DNA of 57,859 nucleotides from Mesonia profundi (lineage in GTDB: Bacteria; Bacteroidota; Bacteroidia; Flavobacteriales; Flavobacteriaceae), in the NCBI RefSeq assembly GCF_031085155.1, contig NZ_JAVHUL010000019.1:1-57859 (forward strand), written 5' to 3'. Position 1 is the first letter of the stretch; each line of letters begins with the position of its first letter. Position numbers and translations under genes: made by a program. Below, one piece after another: positions 43,909 to 54,660 of this stretch. The notes beneath the pieces were generated by a model that was not told where the DNA came from, searched no databases, and worked only from the letters and a program-made list of their open reading frames with translations.

Positions 43909-44535
43909 ATGATTCAGGAGCTTAAAAAATATTACGGTTCGCAGTTTGAACCTGCACTTATAGAAGAAATTAATCGTGTAGCCACTTTTATGGAGGTACA
44001 AGAGGGGGAAGATTTAATAAAACCAGGACAATACATCAAATCGATGCCTTTATTACTTTCGGGAAGCATCAAAATTATGCGTCACGACGAAGAAGGACAA
44101 GAATTGCTGCTTTATTACCTAGAAAGAGGAGAAACCTGTGCGATGACGATGACTTGTTGTATGGGAAATACCAAAAGTGAAATTCACGCCATCACCGAAA
44201 CTCCGGTAAAGCTATTAATGATTCCCATTGGAAAGATGGAAGAATGGTCTAGCAAGTATAAAACTTGGCGAAACTTCGTTTTTTCCAGTTACCACGCGCG
44301 AATGATGGAGCTGCTAGAAAGTGTAGATAATATCGCCTTTAATAATCTAGATGAGCGCTTAGAGAAATACCTGCAAGAGAGAATGAAGATTCTAAACAGC
44401 AAACACATCTACACCACGCATCAACAAATTGCAACAGACTTGCATACGAGCAGGGTGGTAGTGTCTAGATTGCTAAAAAAAATGGAGAATAAAGACCGAA
44501 TAAAATTACACCGTAGTTTTATTGAGGTCTTGTAA
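43909..44535 (+). CDS. Crp/Fnr-family regulator of the sulfur island
   Basis: 208 residues from the ATG at 43909; upstream in-frame codons carry no family text. Cyclic-nucleotide-binding fold at about 15-125 and a Crp-type HTH at about 150-208 (THQQIATDLHTSRVVVSRLLKKME). The effector domain has three cysteines, Cys77, Cys83 and Cys84 (ETCAMTMTCCMGNTKSE). I see no CxxxC cluster of the FNR iron-sulfur type. The vicinal pair is a candidate thiol/persulfide sensor (inference). It heads the sulfur genes, and five matching palindromes stand in front of them. No such palindrome precedes its own gene. Confidence 0.85.
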   Translation: MIQELKKYYGSQFEPALIEEINRVATFMEVQEGEDLIKPGQYIKSMPLLLSGSIKIMRHDEEGQELLLYYLERGETCAMTMTCCMGNTKSEIHAITETPVKLLMIPIGKMEEWSSKYKTWRNFVFSSYHARMMELLESVDNIAFNNLDERLEKYLQERMKILNSKHIYTTHQQIATDLHTSRVVVSRLLKKMENKDRIKLHRSFIEVL

Positions 44536-44575
44536 CATCAGTTACCCAATTCAGTTCTAAAACGCTATACATTTG
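44532..44575 (+). promoter_or_regulatory. Operator S1 and -7 element of the TauE/SafE gene
   Basis: Palindrome GTAACATCAGTTAC at 44532-44545, overlapping the stop of the regulator gene, and TACATTTG at 44568-44575. Centre to centre 33 bp. This places the palindrome near -41 from the expected start, the class II activator position. A 180-base leader follows, with a 15-codon frame (44613-44660). Confidence 0.75.
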
Positions 44576-44760
44576 TTTTATACCATCATTACGTTAAAAT
44601 AGAGACAATAAAATGCCCTTTTTTCCTTTCTACTTCAAGATAAAAAGAAACCATAACTAAGGCTATGCTTCATTTTTCTAATTCGTATAAAGAATAAAAT
44701 CATCATTTTATTTTATCACAACTTCAAAGTAAAAATGGTATTAATTAGTGAATTAGACAG

Positions 44761-45561
44761 ATGGAAATTACAGAAATTTTTGGTTATGTAGGAGCGCTAC
44801 TCATAGGGCTCGTTTTAGGCTTAATTGGTGGCGGCGGTTCTATTCTCACCGTACCTATTTTGGTGTACGCCCTTAGTCTTAATCCCGTAATCGCCACAGC
44901 ATATTCTCTATTTATAGTAGGAACCACTTCTCTTGTGGGCGCCGTTAGGAATATGAAGAAAGGCATGGTAGACTTTAAAACAGCTATCATTTTTGCTATT
45001 CCTGCTTTTATTGCCGTTTACCTTACAAGAGCTTTTTTGATTCCTGCTATTCCCGAAGAATTGTTTCTGGTAGGTGATTTTGTAGTGACCAAAAACCTAG
45101 CAATTATGCTGTTTTTTGCCGTCATTATGTTACTTGCCTCGCTTTCGATGATTCGGAATAAAAATAAAGAAACCCACGAAAATGAAGTCATCACCTATAA
45201 TTACCCGCTTATTATTATAGAAGGACTTGTGGTGGGAACCATCACGGGGATTGTAGGAGCCGGAGGTGGTTTCTTGATTATTCCTGCTTTGGTACTATTG
45301 GCCAAATTACCTATGAAAAAAGCGGTGGCCACTTCCCTATTTATTATTGCTATAAAATCTCTTATAGGCTTTTTGGGCGATGTACAAACCCATCATATCG
45401 ATTGGAGTTTTCTACTTTCGTTTACAGCACTTTCAGTACTTGGGATATTTATAGGCATTTGGTTAAACCAATTTATTGATGGAAAAAAACTAAAAAAAGC
45501 TTTTGGTTGGTTTGTATTATTGATGGGGATTTATATTATTTACAAAGAGCTAATTGTGTAA
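44761..45561 (+). CDS. TauE/SafE-family sulfite/sulfonate exporter
   Basis: 266 residues with about eight transmembrane helices in two repeats: GLVLGLIGGGGSILTVPILVY (about 16-36) and GTITGIVGAGGGFLIIPALVLL (about 159-180), the duplicated TauE/SafE motif. Exporters of this family move sulfite, sulfoacetate and related anions out of the cell. In this context sulfite, the product of the adjacent persulfide dioxygenase, is the likely cargo (inference). Preceded by operator S1. Confidence 0.9.
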   Translation: MEITEIFGYVGALLIGLVLGLIGGGGSILTVPILVYALSLNPVIATAYSLFIVGTTSLVGAVRNMKKGMVDFKTAIIFAIPAFIAVYLTRAFLIPAIPEELFLVGDFVVTKNLAIMLFFAVIMLLASLSMIRNKNKETHENEVITYNYPLIIIEGLVVGTITGIVGAGGGFLIIPALVLLAKLPMKKAVATSLFIIAIKSLIGFLGDVQTHHIDWSFLLSFTALSVLGIFIGIWLNQFIDGKKLKKAFGWFVLLMGIYIIYKELIV

Positions 45562-45601
45562 CCTTGGTTACTAAAATCAAACCTAAAAACGTTTAATTTT
45601 A
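45558..45601 (+). promoter_or_regulatory. Operator S2 and -7 element of the persulfide dioxygenase gene
   Basis: Palindrome GTAACCTTGGTTAC at 45558-45571, the most symmetric of the five, and TAATTTTA at 45594-45601 (one mismatch to TAnnTTTG). Centre to centre 33 bp. Confidence 0.72.
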
Positions 45602-45612
45602 CCTGAAGAGCA

Positions 45613-45630
45613 AAGCTTCCGCGGAAGCAA
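45613..45630. repeat. Iterated palindrome in the persulfide dioxygenase leader
   Basis: AAGCTTCCGCGGAAGC, same core as at 43421. It lies about 12 bases after the -7 element S2 and 30 bases before the ATG, so it would form a hairpin in the 5' leader of the mRNA. Confidence 0.6.
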
Positions 45631-45660
45631 AAAAACAATAAAAACTTAAACTTAGAGATT

Positions 45661-47118
45661 ATGAAAATTGAGCAAATTTATACGGGTTGTTTGTCACAGG
45701 GCGCCTACTATATTGAAAGTCAGGGGGAAGTAGCGATTATTGATCCGCTTCGCGAAGTACAACCTTATATAGACAAAGCGGAAGCTTCTGGGGCAAAAAT
45801 CAAGTACATTTTTGAAACCCATTTTCATGCCGATTTCGTTTCGGGACACCTTACTTTATCAGAAATAACAGGAGCTCCTATTATTTTTGGCCCAAATGCA
45901 AACCCAGATTTTGAATCTACCACCGCTACAGACGGACAAGAATTTAAATTGGGAGAACTTACTTTTGTAGTGCTTCATACACCGGGACATACCATGGAAA
46001 GTACCACTTATCTTTTAAGAGATAAAAATGGAAAAGACCATGCTTTATTTACGGGAGACACCTTGTTTTTAGGAGATGTAGGACGTCCAGATCTTGCTCA
46101 AAAAGCAGCAGATATGACGCAAGAAGACTTGGCAGGAATTTTATATAATAGTTTAAGAACTAAGATTATGCCTTTGGCAGATGATATTACGGTTTACCCG
46201 GCTCATGGCGCAGGATCTGCTTGTGGAAAGAATATGATGAAGGAAACGGTAGATACGTTAGGGAATCAAAAAGAGATGAATTACGCGCTTCGTAGCGATA
46301 TGACCAAGGAAGAATTTGTAGAAGAAGTAACCGACGGTTTATTACCTCCACCCGCTTATTTCCCGATGAATGTGAAGATGAATAAAGAAGGCTACAAAAA
46401 TATTGAAGAAGTACTCAAACGTGGAAATAGCGCTTTAAGTCCAACTGCATTTGAAGCTGCAGCCAATGAAACTGGCGCTGTGATTCTGGATGTAAGAAAA
46501 GCCCAGGATTTTGCCAAAGGACATATTCCGGGTTCTATTTTTATAGGAATTGATGGAGGATTTGCACCTTGGGTAGGAGATTTGATTAAAGATGTAGAAC
46601 AGCCTATTCTTTTAATTGCAGACCACGATCGCATTGAGGAAACCATCACCCGTTTATCTCGTGTAGGTTTTGATCATACTTTAGGTTATCTAGAAGGTGG
46701 TTTTGAAGCTTGGAAAAAAGCGAGTAAAGAATACGATACCGTAACTTCTATTAGCGCACAAGAGTTTAAGAAAGCTCAAGAGGATGAAAAAGATATTCCT
46801 GTATTTGATGTACGAAAGCCGGGAGAATTTGAAGCAGAACATTTACCAAATGTTCACCACACTTCCCTTTCTGACCTTAATGATCATATGGCAGAATATC
46901 CAGAAAAAGAAACTTTCTATGTGCATTGTGCAGGTGGATACCGCAGTATGATTGCTTCGTCTATTTTAAAAAATCGTGGGATTCACAATCTGATTGATAT
47001 TCAAGGCGGTTTCAAAGCGATCAAAGAAGCAGGAATAGAAACGACAAATTATGTTTGTCCGTCTACCTTAAAAAAAAAAAATACGCCTGAATTGGATTCG
47101 TCCAACAAGGCCTCATAA
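45661..47118 (+). CDS. CstB-like persulfide dioxygenase with pseudo-rhodanese and rhodanese domains
   Basis: 485 residues in three parts. Residues 1-245 are an ETHE1/Blh-type metallo-beta-lactamase-fold dioxygenase: THFHADFVSGH at 53-63, PGH (His110), TGDTLF (Asp133), His182 and GSACGKNMMKE. Residues about 255-345 are a rhodanese fold whose active-site Cys is absent (IADHDRIEE). Residues about 366-446 are a second rhodanese with Cys423 (HCAGGYRS). This is the layout of staphylococcal CstB, which oxidises low-molecular persulfides and releases sulfite/thiosulfate. Preceded by operator S2. A run of twelve A at 47080-47091 near the 3' end could cause slippage. Confidence 0.9.
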   Translation: MKIEQIYTGCLSQGAYYIESQGEVAIIDPLREVQPYIDKAEASGAKIKYIFETHFHADFVSGHLTLSEITGAPIIFGPNANPDFESTTATDGQEFKLGELTFVVLHTPGHTMESTTYLLRDKNGKDHALFTGDTLFLGDVGRPDLAQKAADMTQEDLAGILYNSLRTKIMPLADDITVYPAHGAGSACGKNMMKETVDTLGNQKEMNYALRSDMTKEEFVEEVTDGLLPPPAYFPMNVKMNKEGYKNIEEVLKRGNSALSPTAFEAAANETGAVILDVRKAQDFAKGHIPGSIFIGIDGGFAPWVGDLIKDVEQPILLIADHDRIEETITRLSRVGFDHTLGYLEGGFEAWKKASKEYDTVTSISAQEFKKAQEDEKDIPVFDVRKPGEFEAEHLPNVHHTSLSDLNDHMAEYPEKETFYVHCAGGYRSMIASSILKNRGIHNLIDIQGGFKAIKEAGIETTNYVCPSTLKKKNTPELDSSNKAS

Positions 47119-47162
47119 TAACCCCTCAACGAAGGGAAAGTAAATTTTTGGTTGGTTAGTAG

Positions 47163-47192
47163 AAAAGAGCGGCAAGAGATGGTCGCTCTTTT
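47163..47192. terminator. Bidirectional terminator between persulfide dioxygenase and methyltransferase genes
   Basis: AAAAGAGCG / CGCTCTTTT stem between two convergent genes, with a T-rich tail on the plus strand. Confidence 0.7.
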
Positions 47193-47197
47193 CGTTT

Positions 47198-47788
47198 TTA
47201 TTCTTTTTGAAACACTAAAGTCGTCATCGCCCGCAGGTCTTGCACATTGGTCGTTTTTACAGGCTCCATAAGTTTTAAAGGATGGATTTCTAAAAGCGCT
47301 GAAATTAGTTCTCGAGTGATGTAAAAATTCCCATTTTCGTTAGTCTGACTATCTTGTACAAAACCATTCTTTCCTTGCAAACCAATAGTTGACGATACGC
47401 GAATAAATAAAGTTCCTGAAGCTTTTAGAACCCGAATTAATTCTTTAAACATCGCCTGAAAATGTTCTGTGTTTTTTGCAAAATGCAATACTGCAGAACA
47501 TAAAATGTGATCGAAACTACTTCTGCCGTAAGGCAAATTATCTAAGTCCCCTATCCTTAGCTGTGTTGCTATTTTAGAGTAAATTTCTTGCGCTATTTTA
47601 ATGCGTTCGGGATTGCTGTCTATTCCATAAAGAGAAAAGTCGTTTTGATAAAACCATTTTAGGTTTCTTCCTTCACCACAACCCGCATCTAGAATAGATT
47701 GCCCAGGCTGGTAGGTTCCTTTTAAAATTTGATCGAGTACATAAATGTCTATATTTCCTATTAACTCATAGGTTTTTTTGTGATCCAT
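47198..47788 (-). CDS. Class I SAM-dependent methyltransferase
   Basis: 196 residues from the ATG at 47788. SAM motif LDAGCGEGRNL near 40, acidic YGID after the second strand, and post-motif LRIGDLDNLPYGRSSFDHILCSAVLHF (about 86-112). It resembles TehB/Tam-like small-molecule methyltransferases often found beside rhodanese genes; the substrate is unknown. The operator S3 upstream is not in register for this strand (no -7 element at the mirror position), so it probably belongs only to the rhodanese gene. Confidence 0.82.
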   Translation of the reverse strand: MDHKKTYELIGNIDIYVLDQILKGTYQPGQSILDAGCGEGRNLKWFYQNDFSLYGIDSNPERIKIAQEIYSKIATQLRIGDLDNLPYGRSSFDHILCSAVLHFAKNTEHFQAMFKELIRVLKASGTLFIRVSSTIGLQGKNGFVQDSQTNENGNFYITRELISALLEIHPLKLMEPVKTTNVQDLRAMTTLVFQKE

Positions 47789-47832
47789 AGCAGAAATTTC
47801 AGAAAACAAGATAAGAATTCATGTGGAGTTTG

Positions 47833-47876
47833 GTAACATGGGTTACGTATTTTTACTGCTAGATTTCTTATCTTTA
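47833..47876 (+). promoter_or_regulatory. Operator S3 and -7 element of the rhodanese gene
   Basis: Palindrome GTAACATGGGTTAC at 47833-47846 and TATCTTTA at 47869-47876. Centre to centre 33 bp. Confidence 0.72.
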
Positions 47877-47925
47877 AAAATCGATAAGCGAAGATTGCTT
47901 TTATGAATTTAAAAACACCAAAAAA

Positions 47926-48300
47926 ATGAAAAATATAGTTTTAATACTGACCTTAATCAGCACTTTAACTGCTTGTAATGCACAACAGACCAACACCATT
48001 GAAGTTCTTTCTGCTACAGAATTTAAGGAAGCAGTTACCAACAAAGAGGTTCAACTGGTAGATGTTCGTACTCCAGAAGAATTTAAGGAAGGAGAGATTG
48101 ATGACGCTTTAAACATCGACTTTTTACAAAATGAGAGCTTTACGACTCAGTTTGAAAAGTTAGATAAAGAAGAGCCGGTATATATTTACTGCCGTTCTGG
48201 AAACCGAAGTGGAAAAGCAGCGAATCAATTACAAAAAATGGGGTTTAAAGAAATTTACGACCTTGAAGGTGGTTATATGAACTATCCTTATAAAAAGTAA
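47926..48300 (+). CDS. Rhodanese-domain lipoprotein
   Basis: 124 residues. Lipobox TLTAC (Cys17) places a single rhodanese domain in the cell envelope. The active-site loop is CRSGNRS with Cys89, and VDVRTPEEF is present. It can carry a persulfide on Cys89. Under operator S3 it is a plausible envelope sulfur carrier in the island. Confidence 0.9.
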   Translation: MKNIVLILTLISTLTACNAQQTNTIEVLSATEFKEAVTNKEVQLVDVRTPEEFKEGEIDDALNIDFLQNESFTTQFEKLDKEEPVYIYCRSGNRSGKAANQLQKMGFKEIYDLEGGYMNYPYKK

Positions 48301-48328
48301 GATAGCCCATAAGACTTGTATTTTATTT

Positions 48329-48376
48329 AAAATGCGCAAAGAAGAAAACATAAGGTTTTATTTCTTTGCGCATTTT
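48329..48376 (+). terminator. Terminator of the rhodanese gene
   Basis: Perfect 15-base arms AAAATGCGCAAAGAA / TTCTTTGCGCATTTT with an 18-base loop. Confidence 0.75.
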
Positions 48377-48439
48377 GCATTAGACTTAAGTTTTTCTGCG
48401 TAGAACTCTAATTCTAGATTCTAAAAATCAATTAGAATT

Positions 48440-48606
48440 TATACCAATTTAAATACGTAATGTCGCATTAAGAAATTGAATTATTTTTTGCTTGATTGAA
48501 GTTAAAAATTATTAGCATAGCCTTTGTTACGGTGATAATTTTTAATGAAAAGTAAGCATAAAAGAAACGATTTAATGGTTACATTATCTGTTTAATTTGG
48601 TATTAA
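48440..48606 (+). repeat. Dispersed repeat, copy B (MITE-like)
   Basis: Second copy of the repeat at 13679-13796, in the opposite orientation, with about 55 extra bases in the middle. It begins TTATACCAATTTAAATACG and ends AATTTGGTATTAA. Its end supplies the last codons (LIPN) and the stop of the membrane protein gene at 48592. Confidence 0.6.
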
Positions 48607-49089
48607 CACCTCATACATAAAATGCTGCAAGCTTCGCATCTCTTCTTTACCAACCTTTCTACCCAAGCGACCAGAGAAATATAGCACAAACCAAAGCACA
48701 AAAAGTGTTCCCATTGCTAGGATAGGCCAAGTACTGGGTCTCTCTAGTCTAATATTGGTGTACACCCATATACTTGCACCTATAAAAAGGCTTCCTACGA
48801 CAAAGTGCAAGAACATAAACAATGTCCATACCGTAGGACTTGGTCCGTAAAGTCCTTTTAAAACGGTAGGTTGATCTTCAATTTTATAGATTTCTAAGTG
48901 TAATTGTGGCGACCAGAAATGCTGTTTTTCTTTCGGAAATCGTATAAACACATGATCGTCTACCCTACTGGTCACAAAGCTTTCACTACTCTTTCCAGCC
49001 GACTTAAAAGCAACTAGTAGCTTTTCGGGATCTTCATTTAGCTCTAGGCGAAACCTAGGACGTAAAACTACTTGGTTAGATAATTCCAT
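48592..49089 (-). CDS. Small membrane protein of unknown function
   Basis: 165 residues: a soluble N-terminal half with beta-like text (VVLRPRFRLELNEDPEKLLVAF, VFIRFPKEKQHFWSPQLHLEIY), two transmembrane helices (about 88-110 and 120-137) and a C-terminal helix. I do not recognise a named family. The last four codons are inside repeat copy B, so the original C-terminus may have been replaced by the insertion. Confidence 0.65.
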   Translation of the reverse strand: MELSNQVVLRPRFRLELNEDPEKLLVAFKSAGKSSESFVTSRVDDHVFIRFPKEKQHFWSPQLHLEIYKIEDQPTVLKGLYGPSPTVWTLFMFLHFVVGSLFIGASIWVYTNIRLERPSTWPILAMGTLFVLWFVLYFSGRLGRKVGKEEMRSLQHFMYEVLIPN

Positions 49090-49171
49090 AATGGGCTAAA
49101 TATAGAACATTTAATTTGTGCCCTGCAAGAAGAAAATTTTCATATTTTTTTTCTGAAGTTTTTGATTTAAA

Positions 49172-49210
49172 AAAACAAAGAGCAGATTCATCAAATCTAC
49201 TCTTTGTTTT
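49172..49210 (-). terminator. Possible terminator of the minus-strand sulfur operon
   Basis: AAAACAAAGAG-C-AGATT pairs with AATCT-A-CTCTTTGTTTT, one mismatch, T-rich on either strand. Confidence 0.5.
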
Positions 49211-49261
49211 GTTTCTATTTTTTCTTCCGATAAGAGAGAAACTCTTTCAAAACATACTAAA

Positions 49262-49317
49262 ATGTCATTTCGAGCGCCAGCCCGAAAGAATTCATTCTGG
49301 CGGGGAGTCGAGAAATC
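49262..49317. repeat. REP-like hairpin (TGTCATTTCGAG...GTCGAGAAATC)
   Basis: Imperfect inverted repeat of the kind scattered through flavobacterial genomes; related words occur at 36805-36930. Confidence 0.5.
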
Positions 49318-49416
49318 TAACTATAAAACATTTCGATTCCATTCAGCATAGACATTTCGACGCTGTTCATTGTGACAAGGTTTTTTTTACCGTTACACTT
49401 CCGCAAAGTTTCTTTT

Positions 49417-50046
49417 TTACTTCAAACTATTTAAAAACTCCTTAAAATCGGGGTGGCTATAATCGGCCATTCCATTATGTGTCATCACCAAATTTCCTTT
49501 GGTATCGATCACATAAGTGGTAGGAATAGCAGAAGAATGATACATTCTAGGAACTCCGTTTGCTGCCGTATAAATGGGCAGATCATATTCTTTACGCTTG
49601 TCAAATGCCTTGGCTTTTTCAAAATCATCATCTAAAGAAAGCATCACAAAAGCAACCTCATCTCCCATTTCTTCGTGCAGCTCATCAATGCTAGGCATTT
49701 CTGCCACACAAGGCGGACACCAAGTGGCCCACAAGTTCATAAAGATGACTTTACCTTTCAATTCCTTTAAAGAGACGGTATTTCCATCTCTATCAATCAA
49801 ATCAAAATTGAAATCTGCTTTCGTTTTATTGGCATCAACTGCTGCCACCTCATCGCTTCCGGTGTTTTCTGCTACGGTCATTTCTTTTACATCAGGATTC
49901 ATTAAACCAGTAGCTAGAATTCCGCGTTGAGCGAAACCAATTACTTCGGTATGTAATCCTGTAGCGTAGAGCACCACAGCGATGGCTGCAAAAATTCCGT
50001 ACTGAATCCAGGTTTTCTTAGCGCTATCTTTTTTATTCTCTTTCAT
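49417..50046 (-). CDS. TlpA/ResA-like membrane-anchored thioredoxin
   Basis: 209 residues. N-terminal transmembrane anchor at about 12-30, linker, then a TlpA-type thioredoxin fold with the active site WATWCPPC (Cys110, Cys113) and the cis-Pro segment SAIPTTYVID. Faces the periplasm. It is the last gene of the operon with SoxB-like, DsrE-like and DoxX proteins (nine-base gap). Sox clusters carry similar thioredoxins (SoxW/SoxS) that keep the carrier cysteine reduced, so a similar job is inferred. Confidence 0.88.
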   Translation of the reverse strand: MKENKKDSAKKTWIQYGIFAAIAVVLYATGLHTEVIGFAQRGILATGLMNPDVKEMTVAENTGSDEVAAVDANKTKADFNFDLIDRDGNTVSLKELKGKVIFMNLWATWCPPCVAEMPSIDELHEEMGDEVAFVMLSLDDDFEKAKAFDKRKEYDLPIYTAANGVPRMYHSSAIPTTYVIDTKGNLVMTHNGMADYSHPDFKEFLNSLK

Positions 50047-50055
50047 AATTAATTT

Positions 50056-51717
50056 TTATTGAAATTTATATTCGGTTCCCGGTACGGTAGAGAAAGAGTA
50101 CTTTCCAAGATATTCACAGTAAGCTCTTCCCTCTAAAGTAGGAGATACTGGCGATTTCTTTTCTAAATATTCTTCTACCACTTCGTGAATGGTATAGTCT
50201 TTCACTTCTACATCTTCTACATTAGGCATTCTACACAAATTATCGATAGGATCTCCCGGTCTCACACAAGCAGAAATGGTATAATATTCATCATCTTGCA
50301 TAGGCTCTCCTTTCACGATAATGCTAGAAATACGCTCTCCTTTTTGATTTTGAGAATTAAAATTCACTTTCATTCCAGAGAAACGCACCAACCAACCGCC
50401 AAATCTTTCGGTGGCATTTTCAGCAAAAGCATTATGCATTTCACCTTCTAACCAATCCTTAATCTGTTTTCCAGTCGCTTTTCCTGTTTTCACTTTTTCG
50501 TTTACTGGAAGTAAATTCCACAAGTTAGCACGGGTAATAGGTTCTGGTTTACCATCTTTGGGAACTATAGGATTCCCAAAACGGAAGCCATTAGAAATTG
50601 AAATATCTGCTCCGGTTTTCCAACGTGCAGCATCGGTAATCATATTATCCATAGGATTTTCTACGGTTAAATAACGATATATTGGCGTATTGGTATAGCC
50701 TACCACCGTTTCTAGATACTCTTTATAAGGTGCTTTTTCTCTATCTACTAGCGCTTGCAATTCTTTATCTGCAGGATATTTGATAGGATCTACATCGATG
50801 AGTTCATAATCGTCTCCTACTAATTTTCCATCTACCAAATGTAAGGTTAATTTCCCCACGAAAGAACCAAATGCACCCGGTTCAGATACCTTAGCGTACT
50901 TTCCTTGTATCAATTCGCGTACCCTTTCGTGCGTATCATTACCCAATACATAATCTACATTTTCGGCAATCGGATTATTAGCCAATTCTACTTGTTTAAA
51001 AATTCCAATATGTGTCACTAAAAAAAGCACATCTATTTTTTCTTTCACTTTAATATCGTCCACCATCTTTTTCAAATCATCATCAAGGCCACTAAAGCCT
51101 ATTCCTTTACTAAAAATAGGATTTTGTCTTACCGGAACAGCGGGATCATTAATCCCTACAAAACCAATGCGAACTCCTTCAATCTCTTTCACCCAGTGCG
51201 CAGGAAACAAAGGCTCTTTGCTTTCGTCGTGGTGCATATTTTGTGCGATAATGGGCGTATCATAGCCTTTCATTACCTCCATCATATTGTCTTTCCCGTA
51301 CACTACCTCCCAATTTCCTGGAATAATAACATCAAATCCCATATTCTTAATAACGTCTGGCATCACTTTTCCTTCAGATAAAGCTGCATATCCACTTCCT
51401 TGAATCAGGTCACCCCCATCTACAATAATGGTACGGTTGGGATTTTTTTCACGCTCTTGGTCAAAAAGAGTCTTAATATTTGCTAGTCCGCCTCGATTTT
51501 TAAAGACCACTTCTTCGTCTTCCCAAAAAAGTTCTGGATGCGTATCTAATTGCCCGTGAATATCTGCCGTTTGAAGGATGGTAATACTCAAGGTATCTTT
51601 CGTTTCGGAATTTTTAGCCATATCTTTTGAAGTTTCATTTTTACAAGAAACGGTGGCTATTAATATTCCTAAAAGGCTAAGCCTTGCTAAAATTGTGGTG
51701 TTAAATAGGTTCATCAT
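50056..51717 (-). CDS. SoxB-like metallophosphoesterase/5'-nucleotidase-family lipoprotein
   Basis: 553 residues. Lipobox ATVSC (Cys25). The metallophosphoesterase domain has the metal motifs DIH (52-54), GGD (101-103), GNWE (134-137), LVTHIG (His236) and DTHE (His263). The C-terminal 5'-nucleotidase domain follows. In nucleotidases the third motif is GNHE; here the catalytic His is Trp and the text is GNWEVVYG. From memory SoxB reads GHWEFTYG there. GFRFG (377-381) and GGWLVRFSG (430-438) also resemble SoxB (GFRWG, GGDMVRVGG). SoxB removes sulfate from Cys-S-sulfonate on SoxYZ. Between DsrE and TlpA genes, a sulfohydrolase role is more likely than nucleotide salvage. The start overlaps the dsrE-like stop by one base. 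Confidence 0.75.
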   Translation of the reverse strand: MMNLFNTTILARLSLLGILIATVSCKNETSKDMAKNSETKDTLSITILQTADIHGQLDTHPELFWEDEEVVFKNRGGLANIKTLFDQEREKNPNRTIIVDGGDLIQGSGYAALSEGKVMPDVIKNMGFDVIIPGNWEVVYGKDNMMEVMKGYDTPIIAQNMHHDESKEPLFPAHWVKEIEGVRIGFVGINDPAVPVRQNPIFSKGIGFSGLDDDLKKMVDDIKVKEKIDVLFLVTHIGIFKQVELANNPIAENVDYVLGNDTHERVRELIQGKYAKVSEPGAFGSFVGKLTLHLVDGKLVGDDYELIDVDPIKYPADKELQALVDREKAPYKEYLETVVGYTNTPIYRYLTVENPMDNMITDAARWKTGADISISNGFRFGNPIVPKDGKPEPITRANLWNLLPVNEKVKTGKATGKQIKDWLEGEMHNAFAENATERFGGWLVRFSGMKVNFNSQNQKGERISSIIVKGEPMQDDEYYTISACVRPGDPIDNLCRMPNVEDVEVKDYTIHEVVEEYLEKKSPVSPTLEGRAYCEYLGKYSFSTVPGTEYKFQ

Positions 51718-52139
51718 TATAAACTTAAACTTTTATAGCCCTTTTTTTGAAGCTGAAAATTATACAAAATGCCGTTTTCTACGACCTTCATTTCTTCTGG
51801 TACCTTTGTGGTATCAATTTTAAATTTGTTCAGCGAAAAACCGCAAGCTACTAAGTGTACTCCGGCTTCCTCCGCTTTTCTTATAAATTTCTTCATTTTA
51901 TGCGTATCGGTGATATCCCCTATTTCCTTTCCGCAAATAATCACTTGAAAATCGCCAAAATCATCGCCTTCTTCCGCTTTAAGCGATTCCGCAGTAAGAA
52001 TTATAGGTTGTAATTGTGGTATCTTTTTAGTGAGTACCACATAATTATTTTTATCATTTAGATGTTGTTGCGCCTTTAAGTTAGCCGTGCTGAATAAATT
52101 CAGCATTAAAAAGAGGGCGCTTAAAATATATGTTTTCAT
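51717..52139 (-). CDS. Periplasmic DsrE-family protein
   Basis: 140 residues. Signal peptide to about residue 23 (LKAQ). The mature part is a DsrE/DsrF-like fold (GDFQVIICGKEIGD, HKMKKFIRKAEEAGVHLVACGFSL) with Cys69 and Cys99. Cys99 stands where DsrE-family proteins keep the sulfur-carrying cysteine. It is exported, unlike cytosolic DsrE/TusD. Its stop overlaps the start of the SoxB-like gene, so tight co-expression is implied. It could be the carrier on which the SoxB-like enzyme acts, since no SoxYZ is encoded nearby (inference). Confidence 0.78.
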   Translation of the reverse strand: MKTYILSALFLMLNLFSTANLKAQQHLNDKNNYVVLTKKIPQLQPIILTAESLKAEEGDDFGDFQVIICGKEIGDITDTHKMKKFIRKAEEAGVHLVACGFSLNKFKIDTTKVPEEMKVVENGILYNFQLQKKGYKSLSL

Positions 52140-52213
52140 TTTTATGGTTTTAGATGATTTTAGTTTGTGTTTAAAAAGTATCCTGTTTTTTCCGCTTTAC
52201 GGAAAGCTATCCG

Positions 52214-52630
52214 CTAAGGTTCATATTCATCTGGGTTCACAGATTTTCTGGTGTCGTTTAAAACAAAGAATAAAAGTCCGCCTAAGATGGCAATATTTTT
52301 AAAAAGTGGTCCTAATGTCGTGATTTGTCCTACCTGAATGGTTAAGGTAATGGGAATTAAAACGCCTATCAAAATGAGGGCTGCCCATTTGGTTTTGTAG
52401 CCCATAAGAAAAAGAAAACCTGCACTAAGCATCACCATTCCCGAAAGAATCACCAGCCATTGGGGATCTCCAAAAAGATGGGCAATCCCTTTAAAATTAG
52501 CTTTTTCTATGCGTTGTGCTGTCTTTTCTACCTGAAGCAAGTGGTTAAAACCTGCTACGAGAAATATACCACTAACGAATATTCTTAAAAGTTGGACCGA
52601 TCTAGCGTTTACTGAAATACGTGTCGCCAT
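52214..52630 (-). CDS. DoxX/MauE-like membrane protein of the sulfur operon
   Basis: 138 residues with four transmembrane segments: LLRIFVSGIFLVAGFNHLLQV (about 14-34), VILSGMVMLSAGFLFLMGY, ALILIGVLIPITLTIQVG and IAILGGLLFFVL. DoxX/DoxD relatives form thiosulfate:quinone oxidoreductase in archaea and pair with redox partners in bacteria. In this operon a link from periplasmic sulfur chemistry to the quinone pool is possible (inference). A 74-base gap separates it from the dsrE-like gene. Confidence 0.82.
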   Translation of the reverse strand: MATRISVNARSVQLLRIFVSGIFLVAGFNHLLQVEKTAQRIEKANFKGIAHLFGDPQWLVILSGMVMLSAGFLFLMGYKTKWAALILIGVLIPITLTIQVGQITTLGPLFKNIAILGGLLFFVLNDTRKSVNPDEYEP

Positions 52631-52752
52631 GAGAACTCATGTAAAAATTAAGAGTTGATTTTGTGCGGTGTCTATCCGTAATTACTCCTTTTTACATGCG
52701 TTTGGAAAAGAAACCATTACGGTAGCACCGACTTAAAATTTTATCATTATTC

Positions 52753-53115
52753 TTAAGCGATCCGGGGTGGCGGAGAGGTATTATCTAGGTGTAGATAATT
52801 GAATCTTGAAGTAAAGTAATCGTTGAAAATCGTGATGGGTTCTACCGTATTGGTTTCCCAAGAAAACAAATCGAACTGAAATTGTGAGGTACAAAAACTG
52901 TTTAAGGCAATCACCTGAGAAGTGATTTGATCTGCTTCAGAAAATTGAGCTTTCTTTTGGCCTTGCTTCGGAAAGTTTTCTTTCTTACAATGCGGATTCA
53001 CAAAAGTGATATCACTTCCGCTGAAAAGCAAATTCAATCCCCCCGCTTCTAAGGCCATAAACTTTGCCGAGAAGATGAAGATAAGTGCTGCCGCTATGTA
53101 AGTTTGTGTTTTCAC
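52753..53115 (-). CDS. Small Cys-containing secreted protein leading the sulfur operon
   Basis: 120 residues from a GTG at 53115. N-terminal hydrophobic segment (about 5-22), then NPHCKK (Cys43), SFC (Cys74) and the tail NTSPPPRIA. The length, hydrophobic start, few cysteines and proline tail recall the HYC_CC_PP-type protein at 16683-17102. Both genes have the identical 12 bases GCATCGTGAAAA over their GTG start. An in-frame TTG seven codons upstream lies within the promoter and is rejected. The transcript should begin about four bases before the GTG. Function unknown. Confidence 0.65.
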   Translation of the reverse strand: MKTQTYIAAALIFIFSAKFMALEAGGLNLLFSGSDITFVNPHCKKENFPKQGQKKAQFSEADQITSQVIALNSFCTSQFQFDLFSWETNTVEPITIFNDYFTSRFNYLHLDNTSPPPRIA

Positions 53116-53122
53116 GATGCTC

Positions 53123-53166
53123 CAAACATATAACAATTAAGCCGTGAGCTTTGTAACTTTTGTTAC
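53123..53166 (-). promoter_or_regulatory. Operator S4 and -7 element of the minus-strand sulfur operon
   Basis: Palindrome GTAACTTTTGTTAC at 53153-53166 and, on the minus strand, TATGTTTG at 53123-53130 (perfect TAnnTTTG). Centre to centre 33 bp. Confidence 0.78.
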
Positions 53167-53216
53167 TCAATCGCTTTAAAAGCTTTTTTTAACAAAATTT
53201 AGAAAAAAACACTTCC

Positions 53217-53372
53217 TTACTTAATCACTTGAATTGCCCAGACGACTAACAGAAAACCTATCCCTGTAACGGCGGGTGCTGGAATTTGAGCAACAACCCC
53301 CAATACAATCATTACGATAGCGGTGATGGCAAGTAATACAGAAATCAAGTTTAATTTTTTGGTACGTGTCAT
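53217..53372 (-). CDS. 51-residue membrane peptide
   Basis: MTRTKKLNLISVLLAITAIV begins a 51-residue protein with two hydrophobic segments (about 8-25 and 31-47), a Pro-Ala-Pro-Ala turn between them and a basic N-terminus. It lies between operator S4 and the MITE-like element. Composition and start context look like a real small membrane protein. I have no family for it. Confidence 0.55.
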   Translation of the reverse strand: MTRTKKLNLISVLLAITAIVMIVLGVVAQIPAPAVTGIGFLLVVWAIQVIK

Positions 53373-53384
53373 TTTTCTATTTTT

Positions 53385-53586
53385 ATTAGTCGTGTCCGAC
53401 TAAGATATAAAACCTAAGACTTGATCTTAATAGCCTGCTCATTAGATTAAATCGATGAAGCGTACGTATTAATTTTTAAATTTCAATGGTAAACTTAATA
53501 GCAAGCAGTCACTTCATAAAAAATCGCTGAACGTCTTTTATATTTGAATCAACAGAAATCTTTAATGTTGTAATCGGACACTAATG
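53385..53586. mobile_element. MITE-like element, copy 2
   Basis: About 202 bases with inverted ends ATTAGTCGTGTCCGACTAA and, from the right, CATTAGTGTCCGATTA. No transposase frame. Same ends as copy 1 at 37862-38103. It sits between the two divergent sulfur transcription units. Confidence 0.62.
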
Positions 53587-53625
53587 TATTTTTCTCTAAA
53601 CTAATAAAAAATAATCGGACTTATT

Positions 53626-53669
53626 GTAACGTTTGTTACCGATATCACTTTACAAAAACAGCATCTTTG
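53626..53669 (+). promoter_or_regulatory. Operator S5 and -7 element of the YeeE/YedE genes
   Basis: Palindrome GTAACGTTTGTTAC at 53626-53639 and CATCTTTG at 53662-53669 (one mismatch to TAnnTTTG). Centre to centre 33 bp. Confidence 0.74.
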
Positions 53670-53685
53670 CTCAAAAATTATCGAT

Positions 53686-54243
53686 ATGAATTGGATATAT
53701 GATCCTTGGCCTTGGTATGTTGCGGGACCGCTTATTGCTTTTACCATGTTTATTTTATTGCTCGCAGGAAAGCAATTTGGGATGTCTTCCAACCTTCGTA
53801 CGGCATGTTCGGCGATGGGAGCAGGAAAAGCAGCCGACTTTTTCAAATTTGATTGGAAAGCAGAACGCTGGAATTTGATGCTTGTCGCAGGAGCGGTGAT
53901 TGGTGGTTTTATCGCCTCTAACTACATGAGCGACAATATCGTAGAAATTAACCCCGAAGTTGCTCAGCAACTCGCCACCGACTATCAAATTGAAAGTGCT
54001 GGTGAAAGCTATTTACCTACAGAACTGTTTTCTACCGCAGCATTATCAAATCCTTTTACCATCATCATCCTTTTATTAGGTGGGTTAATGGTAGGTTTTG
54101 GAGCCCGTTATGCCGGTGGTTGTACCTCGGGTCACGCCATCTCTGGATTGAGTAACCTGCAACTCCCCTCTTTAATTGCCGTCATCGGTTTTTTTATAGG
54201 CGGCTTGGTCATGATTCATTTAATTTTCCCTTTAATCTTTTAG
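53686..54243 (+). CDS. YeeE/YedE-family sulfur transporter, first half
   Basis: 185 residues with four or five transmembrane helices. The conserved motif GARYAGGCTSGHAISGLSNLQLPSL (about 143-167) carries the cysteine that moves along the substrate in YeeE (thiosulfate) and PmpA-type transporters. The gene ends three bases before a second half-size YeeE-like gene, so the two proteins together should make one transporter, as in PmpAB. Thiosulfate or another sulfane-sulfur compound is the likely cargo. Under operator S5. Confidence 0.9.
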   Translation: MNWIYDPWPWYVAGPLIAFTMFILLLAGKQFGMSSNLRTACSAMGAGKAADFFKFDWKAERWNLMLVAGAVIGGFIASNYMSDNIVEINPEVAQQLATDYQIESAGESYLPTELFSTAALSNPFTIIILLLGGLMVGFGARYAGGCTSGHAISGLSNLQLPSLIAVIGFFIGGLVMIHLIFPLIF

Positions 54244-54246
54244 CAC

Positions 54247-54660
54247 ATGAAATATTTCACTTATTTAGTCATTGGTATTTTCTTCGGAATTGTGATGTTT
54301 AAATCTGAAGCCGCTTCTTGGTTTCGGATTTATGAAATGTTCCAGTTTGGAAGCTTTCATATGTACGGCATCATAGGCTCGGCCTTAGCTTTAGGCGTTA
54401 TAGGCGTTCAACTTATAAAACGCAAAAACATAAAACCCTTAGACGGAAGCGAAATGAGCTTACAACCTAAGAAAAAAGGCATAGCTCGCTACCTTATTGG
54501 CGGTATTATTTTTGGACTTGGTTGGGCATTGGCAGGCGCTTGCCCAGGACCTATGTACGTTCTCGCAGGTGCAGGTTATGGTTCTATTTTTATCGTTATT
54601 TTTGGAGCCCTTGCCGGAACTTTTCTTTACGGAATCTTAAGAAAACATCTTCCACATTAA
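54247..54660 (+). CDS. YeeE/YedE-family (DUF6691-like) sulfur transporter, second half
   Basis: 137 residues with about four helices and the second conserved motif GGIIFGLGWALAGACPGPMYVLAGAG (about 91-116) with its cysteine. Three bases after the first half. Complements it to a complete split YeeE/YedE transporter. Followed by a terminator. Confidence 0.9.
   Translation: MKYFTYLVIGIFFGIVMFKSEAASWFRIYEMFQFGSFHMYGIIGSALALGVIGVQLIKRKNIKPLDGSEMSLQPKKKGIARYLIGGIIFGLGWALAGACPGPMYVLAGAGYGSIFIVIFGALAGTFLYGILRKHLPH

Follow-up and report, generated by a model that had tools for sequence, protein, structure and literature searches.

A predicted Crp/Fnr regulon of sulfur genes with operators in a fixed promoter register in Mesonia profundi

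Operators and genes at the locus

The window studied here is contig NZ_JAVHUL010000019.1 of Mesonia profundi (57,859 nt; assembly GCF_031085155.1). It encodes a Crp/Fnr-family regulator of 208 aa (P0001; 43909–44535, plus strand, likely start at 43909) with cysteines at positions 77, 83 and 84 and the recognition helix TSRVVVSR, and it carries five exact copies of the palindrome GTAAC-N4-GTTAC, which start at 44532, 45558, 47833, 53153 and 53626. All five had been listed in an earlier note on this DNA and were reproduced by a pattern search of the entire window, which returned no sixth exact copy. The distance from the centre of the palindrome to the centre of a TAnnTTTG-like box of 8 bp is 33.0 bp in all five cases, as the earlier note had stated for both strands; this was confirmed from the printed sequence and by a spacing search. 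Four of the operator/box pairs lie on the plus strand and one (53153) on the minus strand. Two of the boxes match TAnnTTTG exactly and three carry one change, and in the pattern search at the set spacing with TANNTTTR, boxes 1–4 had no mismatch and the fifth (CATCTTTG) had one. Boxes that deviate at no more than one place occur at 2.4% of fixed positions, counting two strands, and luck would put five of them in one register, out of 50 possible spacings, with a probability of about 4e-7.

Operator 1 (GTAACATCAGTTAC, 44532–44545, plus strand) contains the stop codon of the regulator gene within its half-site (G-TAA-C; window 44531–44536) and is followed by the −7 box TACATTTG (44568–44575, plus strand) for tauE, which encodes a TauE/SafE-type exporter (44761–45561, plus strand; PF01925, E=4e-49). 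Operator 2 (GTAACCTTGGTTAC, 45558–45571, plus strand) and its box TAATTTTA (45594–45601, plus strand) precede the gene of a persulfide dioxygenase-like protein with a metallo-beta-lactamase domain and two rhodanese domains (45661–47118, plus strand; PF00753 and two PF00581 matches). Operator 3 (GTAACATGGGTTAC, 47833–47846, plus strand), with the box TATCTTTA (47869–47876, plus strand), lies before a gene for a rhodanese-domain protein whose N-terminus looks lipoprotein-like by eye (47926–48300, plus strand; PF00581, E=6e-22).

Operator 4 reads GTAACAAAAGTTAC on the minus strand (53153–53166) and is paired with the box TATGTTTG (53123–53130, minus strand). The first gene behind it, taken from the list of open reading frames (52753–53136, minus strand), encodes a small protein without a match in family-model searches; by eye, its real start is probably the GTG at 53115, 8 nt past the box. 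In another genome (L055), a homologue with 42% identity follows an in-register site. The claim of the earlier note that each operator lies upstream of one sulfur transcription unit could be shown only in part for the operator at 53153, given that its first gene has no family match. Operator 5 (GTAACGTTTGTTAC, 53626–53639, plus strand), with the box CATCTTTG (53662–53669, plus strand), precedes two half-size genes for YeeE/YedE-type sulfur transporters (53686–54243 and 54247–54660, plus strand). Both score above the cut-off of Sulf_transp (PF04143), and the TsuA model stayed below its cut-off for these genes (53686–54660).

Recurrence of the register in the genome and in relatives

A genome scan for the palindrome with a box 33 bp away, which the earlier note had proposed, was run on the assembly (3,077,385 bases, 76 contigs, 98.9% complete). 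Seven exact palindromes were found, while the reversed control pattern occurred five times on each strand. Five of the seven copies fall within 9.1 kb, for which the Poisson probability is 3e-11 to 7e-14 depending on the background used. When the palindrome was combined with TANNTTTR at the set spacing and at most one mismatch was allowed overall, nine matches were obtained: the five window operators, one copy each on contigs C10, C35 and C19, and the operator at 53626 read on the other strand. The C10 copy (C10:23514, box TTACTTTG) is a sixth exact palindrome in register and precedes a rhodanese gene (PF00581); the observation of the earlier note that no in-register copy was seen elsewhere in the window holds for exact palindromes, and the genome adds this one. 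The other two copies have one mismatch and precede a DUF983 gene (C35:11344) and a DsrE gene (C19:7834), respectively. The seventh exact copy (C75:61798), with two mismatches in its box, looks like a chance occurrence and was dropped. With up to three mismatches the genome search is noise, its 40 forward and 43 reverse matches being no more than the 43 and 50 of the reversed control, so only matches with at most one mismatch were used.

As to the operator at 53626, its one-mismatch box on the minus strand (window 53596–53639) is also in register and faces a possible reading frame of 51 codons (about 53220–53371, by eye), so this operator might work both ways.

The same gaps were then compared in relatives. 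In a first set of 42 loci (774 kb) that encode relatives of the local regulator, the palindrome occurs 106 times, versus at most four times for each of 59 scrambled half-site arrangements. Exact TAnnTTTG boxes stand 48 times at a spacer of 22, which corresponds to 33 bp between the centres of palindrome and box, and no other spacer between 2 and 59 has more than two. If a single mismatch in the box is tolerated, spacer 22 is found for 99 of the 106 palindromes. The outcome that would refute the earlier note by its own account, namely similar numbers of the motif elsewhere without a common register, was not observed: the motif is in strong excess and a single spacer dominates.

This dominance extends beyond the loci of close relatives. 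Among 249 genomes of Flavobacteriaceae, a search at spacers 7–37 gave matches in 184, and the reversed control in 73 (95 matches); among the matches listed, from 74 genomes of the family, the spacer is 22 in 117 of 150, 23 in eight and 21 in six. In a survey of 345 genomes of the phylum at spacers 16–28, 80 matches were obtained versus 40 for the reversed control. Here spacer 22 accounts for 38 of 49 rows from the same family, all three from another family of the order and 19 of 22 from other orders of the class, which amounts to 60 of 74 rows across the class Bacteroidia. Any match at all was seen in 11 of the 39 genomes from other orders of the class. Outside the class, none of the six rows from 260 genomes had spacer 22, and the reversed control gave 22 there. 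The occurrence of the register in several families and orders, and in none outside the class, indicates a regulon that is spread patchily through Bacteroidia.

Two results of these searches weigh against so strict a rule. Among boxes with exactly one mismatch in the 42 loci there is some excess at spacer 23 (12, compared with 53 at spacer 22 and at most seven at any other), and the DsrE site on C19 is not conserved, since none of the four homologues examined has an in-register site; the DsrE gene is a member by virtue of its own site only. A coincidence, or the recent duplication of one promoter, is a negligible explanation of the five-fold register and was rejected, because spacer 22 dominates in relatives, even those from different families and orders of the class, the 22-bp spacers in the window differ from one another and show little conservation over 225 in-register sites, and the Poisson and register probabilities are as low as given above.

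Promoter geometry and the predicted binding protein

In Flavobacterium psychrophilum, the sigma-A box TAnnTTTG spans −12 to −5 (PMC9723704); with the centre of the box at −8.5, a distance of 33 bp places the centre of the operator at −41.5. In 225 distinct in-register sites, no TTG signal is present in the 22-bp spacer (offsets 0–3: 7/225), which confirms on a larger sample the missing −33 TTG of the earlier note, and a T precedes the palindrome in 74% of the sites. Since these sites were selected for a box at spacer 22, their box columns prove nothing, and only the unselected columns are meaningful. The lack of a TTG signal suggests that the near half-site takes the place of the −33 element. 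The position −41.5 is the standard class II position for FNR, CRP and NtcA. Judged by geometry, an operator at −41.5 combined with the absence of a −33 element is the arrangement of a class II activator, and the phase near −41 put forward earlier is strongly supported by the comparative evidence.

We propose that a dimer of the protein encoded at 43909–44535 would bind GTAAC-N4-GTTAC with its centre at −41.5 in sigma-A promoters with a TAnnTTTG −7 box and no −33 TTG, and that it would contact RNA polymerase from the position of the missing −33 element, leading to class II activation of targets whose main tasks here would be the oxidation, transport or detoxification of sulfide, sulfane sulfur and thiosulfate. 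Position by itself is no proof of direction, and repression is the mode of action of several known sulfide regulators. That the local protein represses, or acts in both directions, is nevertheless improbable: the operators are fixed at −41.5, clear of the −7 box and the start, the promoters do without a −33 element, and a repressor needs no fixed register. The geometry therefore appears to suit activation better than repression.

The protein that binds these operators is best predicted to be the local regulator, as the earlier note had assumed, because the operators cluster beside its gene and co-occur with it, and because its Arg-Val helix suits GTA...TAC. Its assignment to the Crp/Fnr family is given by PF00027 cNMP_binding (38.8 bits, cut-off 27.5) and PF13545 HTH_Crp_2 (27.5 bits, cut-off 27), scored on a longer frame of 255 aa, and its AF2 model matches CRP, NtcA and FNR in Foldseek. 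In 73 aligned rows (72 loci, one of them the window's own, plus the window), Arg182, Val184, Ser186 and Arg187 of the recognition helix are invariant, and position 183 is Val in all rows but one, which has Ile. In 17 of the 42 related loci the operator starts one base before the regulator's stop, so that TAA lies within the half-site as in the window; this overlap is also found in relatives with 55 and 48% identity (L136 and L139, respectively). A further 16 loci have an operator that begins at some other point no more than 200 bp from the stop, which gives 33 of 42.

Co-occurrence was assessed in the family. Of 195 genomes with a strong orthologue (E < 1e-52), 173 have a match at some spacer from 7 to 37, compared with five of 17 in which the orthologue is weak and six of 37 that have none. 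In a single genus (g127, 22 genomes), spacer-22 sites occur in all five genomes with an Arg-Val orthologue and in one of the 17 that have only an Arg-Glu paralogue (Fisher 2e-4), a comparison that removes much of the problem of genome size and background.

Several observations weigh against the local regulator as the sole or general binder. In the family tally, genome size is a confounder, the E limits were chosen with the data already known, and the control matches in 73 of 249 genomes imply that chance matches are included at spacers 7–37; moreover, 22 of the 195 genomes with a strong orthologue have no match at these spacers. At any spacer from 16 to 28, the comparison within g127 is less sharp (5/5 versus 3/17). 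One genome (G402) has in-register sites, one of them before TauE, and its single good homologue carries Arg-Glu. Two others (G467 and G475) have in-register sites and no regulator homologue at 1e-5, which means that another regulator can use this operator and register. For an orthologue from Porphyromonas, no exact site was found within 20 kb and no sulfur gene was evident in the 7 kb read.

The most concrete candidate for such another binder is a protein of the HcpR2 type. HcpR2 regulons have been described for Clostridia, Bacteroides and Thermotogales with the operator consensus GTAACnnnnGTTAC, exactly the sequence found here, and Rodionov and colleagues relate the motif to Arg180 and residue 181 (CRP numbering), HcpR2 having Pro at 181 (PMC1274295). 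The sites of G475 and G467 fit an HcpR2-like regulator that shares operator and register. They include G475:C3:771959 (L140, L207), and one of them stands before hcp, the gene of the hybrid cluster protein (Prismane). If such a protein, or another Crp/Fnr paralogue, were the binder in Mesonia profundi, the local gene would be merely a neighbour. We consider this unlikely. The Mesonia profundi genome has no hcp/Prismane match at E 0.001. Three of its proteins exceed the HTH_Crp_2 cut-off, and only the local regulator has Arg-Val, the other two helices being TAKEACIR and RVETVIR; of seven weaker matches below the cut-off, two were inspected. The proximity of operator and regulator stop in 33 loci, and the way spacer-22 sites track the Arg-Val orthologue inside g127, also argue against it. 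The local regulator shares the operator GTAACnnnnGTTAC and the Crp/Fnr family with HcpR2 (PMC1274295), and differs in having Val instead of Pro at 181 (72/73 rows; Ile 1), sulfur genes instead of hcp as targets, and a Cys triad. Membership in HcpR2 was therefore rejected, on the missing hcp gene and the Val at 181.

Combined, the comparative evidence gives us good confidence that the operators belong to a genuine Crp/Fnr regulon, with the local protein as the predicted binder and class II activation as its probable mode of action.

In several relatives, the regulator gene is immediately preceded by a DUF983 gene that itself carries an in-register operator (L098:9616–10014; similarly in L099, L100, L103, L104, L113 and L116), and the regulator may be autoregulated there through this operator. 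The DUF983 gene of Mesonia profundi sits elsewhere, on C35 with its one-mismatch operator.

Target genes, candidate signal and known systems

The first gene behind each in-register site was scored in two sets of loci. In the first set (101 site-strand rows from the 42 loci), TauE is the commonest recognised gene with 29 rows, followed by metallo-beta-lactamase-rhodanese proteins (20), single rhodaneses (7), YeeE (6) and the regulator itself (2); the remaining 37 rows are of other kinds, including four for which no reading frame was detected. Among the genes recognised in this set, those for sulfur proteins form the majority. In the second set (78 rows with a reading frame, some sites being counted twice), TolC-type genes come first with 19 rows, before metallo-beta-lactamase-rhodanese (15), TauE (10), SulP (6) and rhodanese (6), and 15 rows are unrecognised. 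Single targets backed by family models are an AhpC-type peroxiredoxin, a SulP sulfate permease, a PF03601 transporter, an OEP-CusB-RND pump, cytochrome bd subunit I, a protein of the molybdopterin sulfite-oxidase type, a Tll0287/cytochrome c-like protein, DUF983 and DUF2490. Sulfide:quinone reductase and SorA sulfite dehydrogenase were best NCBIfam matches below the curated cut-offs, and the gene of a HYC_CC_PP protein also carries an in-register site.

When homologues of the window genes were tallied, a count that includes overlapping loci and the window's own, with loose homology for the rhodanese, exact in-register sites were found before 61 of 95 TauE, 57 of 93 metallo-beta-lactamase-rhodanese, nine of 30 YeeE and 11 of 77 rhodanese genes, and before one of two homologues of the 52753–53136 gene. 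Direct-target status mostly failed for the other window genes, which have few or no such sites before their homologues (TlpA 1/6; DoxX, the 51717–52139 protein and the SoxB-like protein 0/4 each; a methyltransferase 0/8). The candidate rest of unit 4 (49417–52630, minus strand), for which co-transcription is presumed, comprises on the minus strand DoxX (52214–52630), a small protein without family match that is DsrE-like by eye only (51717–52139), a SoxB/5′-nucleotidase-like protein (50056–51717; SoxB model 253.7 bits, cut-off 550) and a TlpA-type thioredoxin (49417–50046). Since their homologues mostly lack in-register sites, the genes from DoxX to TlpA would be reachable only by read-through from operator 4. 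The SoxB-like gene with its DoxX and TlpA neighbours is perhaps a reduced thiosulfate-type cluster.

Some regulated genes seem to start 3–8 nt after the box (window 53115–53130, minus strand; L215, L160, L049 and L061), with starts taken as the first ATG or by eye, which suggests leaderless or near-leaderless messages.

As for the signal, the only cysteines of the regulator are Cys77, Cys83 and Cys84, none of them N-terminal, and all three are invariant in the 73 rows. This count is partly biased towards the triad because some loci were found with the peptide pattern AMTMTCCM; 30 loci are free of this bias and are also the closest ones. Judged from the alignment with NtcA and the succession of structural elements in the AF2 model (low confidence at 80–82), the triad lies in the cyclic-nucleotide segment of CRP, and CAMTMTCC lines up by eye with the CRP pocket segment without its Glu72. 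We suggest that sulfane sulfur (persulfide or polysulfide) or a related thiol-reactive species would be sensed by the three cysteines, which would replace the cyclic-nucleotide phosphate cassette. This is the likeliest single reading, at somewhat less than an even chance; the invariance of the cysteines is suggestive of persulfide sensing.

A signal other than sulfane sulfur is a serious possibility that likewise stays short of even: the triad could bind a soft metal, haem or an Fe-S cluster, or sense redox state or NO, with the sulfur genes as one output of a wider stress response. The in-register sites at TolC, HYC_CC_PP, cytochrome bd and peroxiredoxin genes point this way, as does the leading place of TolC-type genes in the second set. 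The recognised targets of the first set, TauE, metallo-beta-lactamase-rhodanese, rhodanese and YeeE, argue for sulfur instead, and a cluster of the FNR type is unlikely with only three cysteines and none N-terminal. A further point to weigh comes from two regulators that have the Arg-Val helix and lack the CC pair: their genomes have spacer-22 sites, of which the one examined in each stands before TolC. The operator can thus do without the triad, a hint that it is separable from the signal. The lead of TolC lowered our estimate for the more specific proposal, namely a Crp/Fnr subfamily throughout Bacteroidia whose C-x5-CC triad would be persulfidated and which would act as direct persulfide sensor and class II activator of sulfide oxidation; we put it forward tentatively, with its chances on the lower side of even.

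TolC-type genes with an in-register operator (e.g. L040, L041 and L157; L102, L129, L130 and L135) lie in some cases right beside the regulator gene. In L135, the only such operon examined, OEP, CusB and RND genes follow the in-register operator. Efflux may thus be connected with sulfur stress.

Among known systems, NtcA is the second closest sequence relative of the regulator in the PDB after 3dv8, and its helix (PDB 2xgx, 8h3v) reads STRVTVTR compared with TSRVVVSR here. NtcA recognises GTA-N8-TAC and acts as a class II activator at −41.5, so that both proteins combine, by sequence, an Arg-Val helix with GTA...TAC; its nitrogen targets and its 2-oxoglutarate signal set it apart from a sulfur regulon. 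The regulator scores far below the NCBIfam equivalog cut-offs of NtcA (39.6 versus 244.95 bits) and CRP (50.4 versus 266 bits). CRP has Glu181 and the cAMP-pocket residue Glu72, whereas the local regulator has Val at 181 and no pocket Glu. FNR of E. coli binds two 5-bp half-sites 4 bp apart, acts at −41.5, recognises TTGAT and uses four cysteines for a 4Fe-4S cluster. Of the FNR-like half-site spacing noted earlier, the N4 and the position are shared with FNR; the half-site itself is closer to HcpR2 and NtcA than to TTGAT, and the local protein has three cysteines instead of four ligands.

The persulfide regulators SqrR/BigR, CstR and FisR belong to the ArsR, CsoR and sigma-54 families, respectively, SqrR/BigR and CstR being repressors. 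They resemble the present system in that they control genes for persulfide dioxygenase, sulfide:quinone reductase, rhodanese, TauE and YeeE-type proteins upon persulfides, and differ from the local regulator with its Crp/Fnr domains and fold. BigR and FisR are also described in PMC7315123. A literature search without most subscription journals or RegPrecise turned up no Crp/Fnr regulon with such sulfur targets and no regulator with a Cys triad at the cAMP site, and within the literature searched the motif was in print only for HcpR2. The operator type, the fold and the promoter geometry are of kinds already known, and the sensor variant is possibly new.

Sulfidic habitats harbour flavobacteria and related bacteria as abundant heterotrophs, and the literature searched offered no account of how these switch on the oxidation of sulfide and persulfide. 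The regulon supplies a testable sensor candidate, and the motif together with the register rule predicts roles across the class for functionally uncharacterised genes, among them those of DUF983 and DUF2490 proteins, small membrane proteins and an RND pump.

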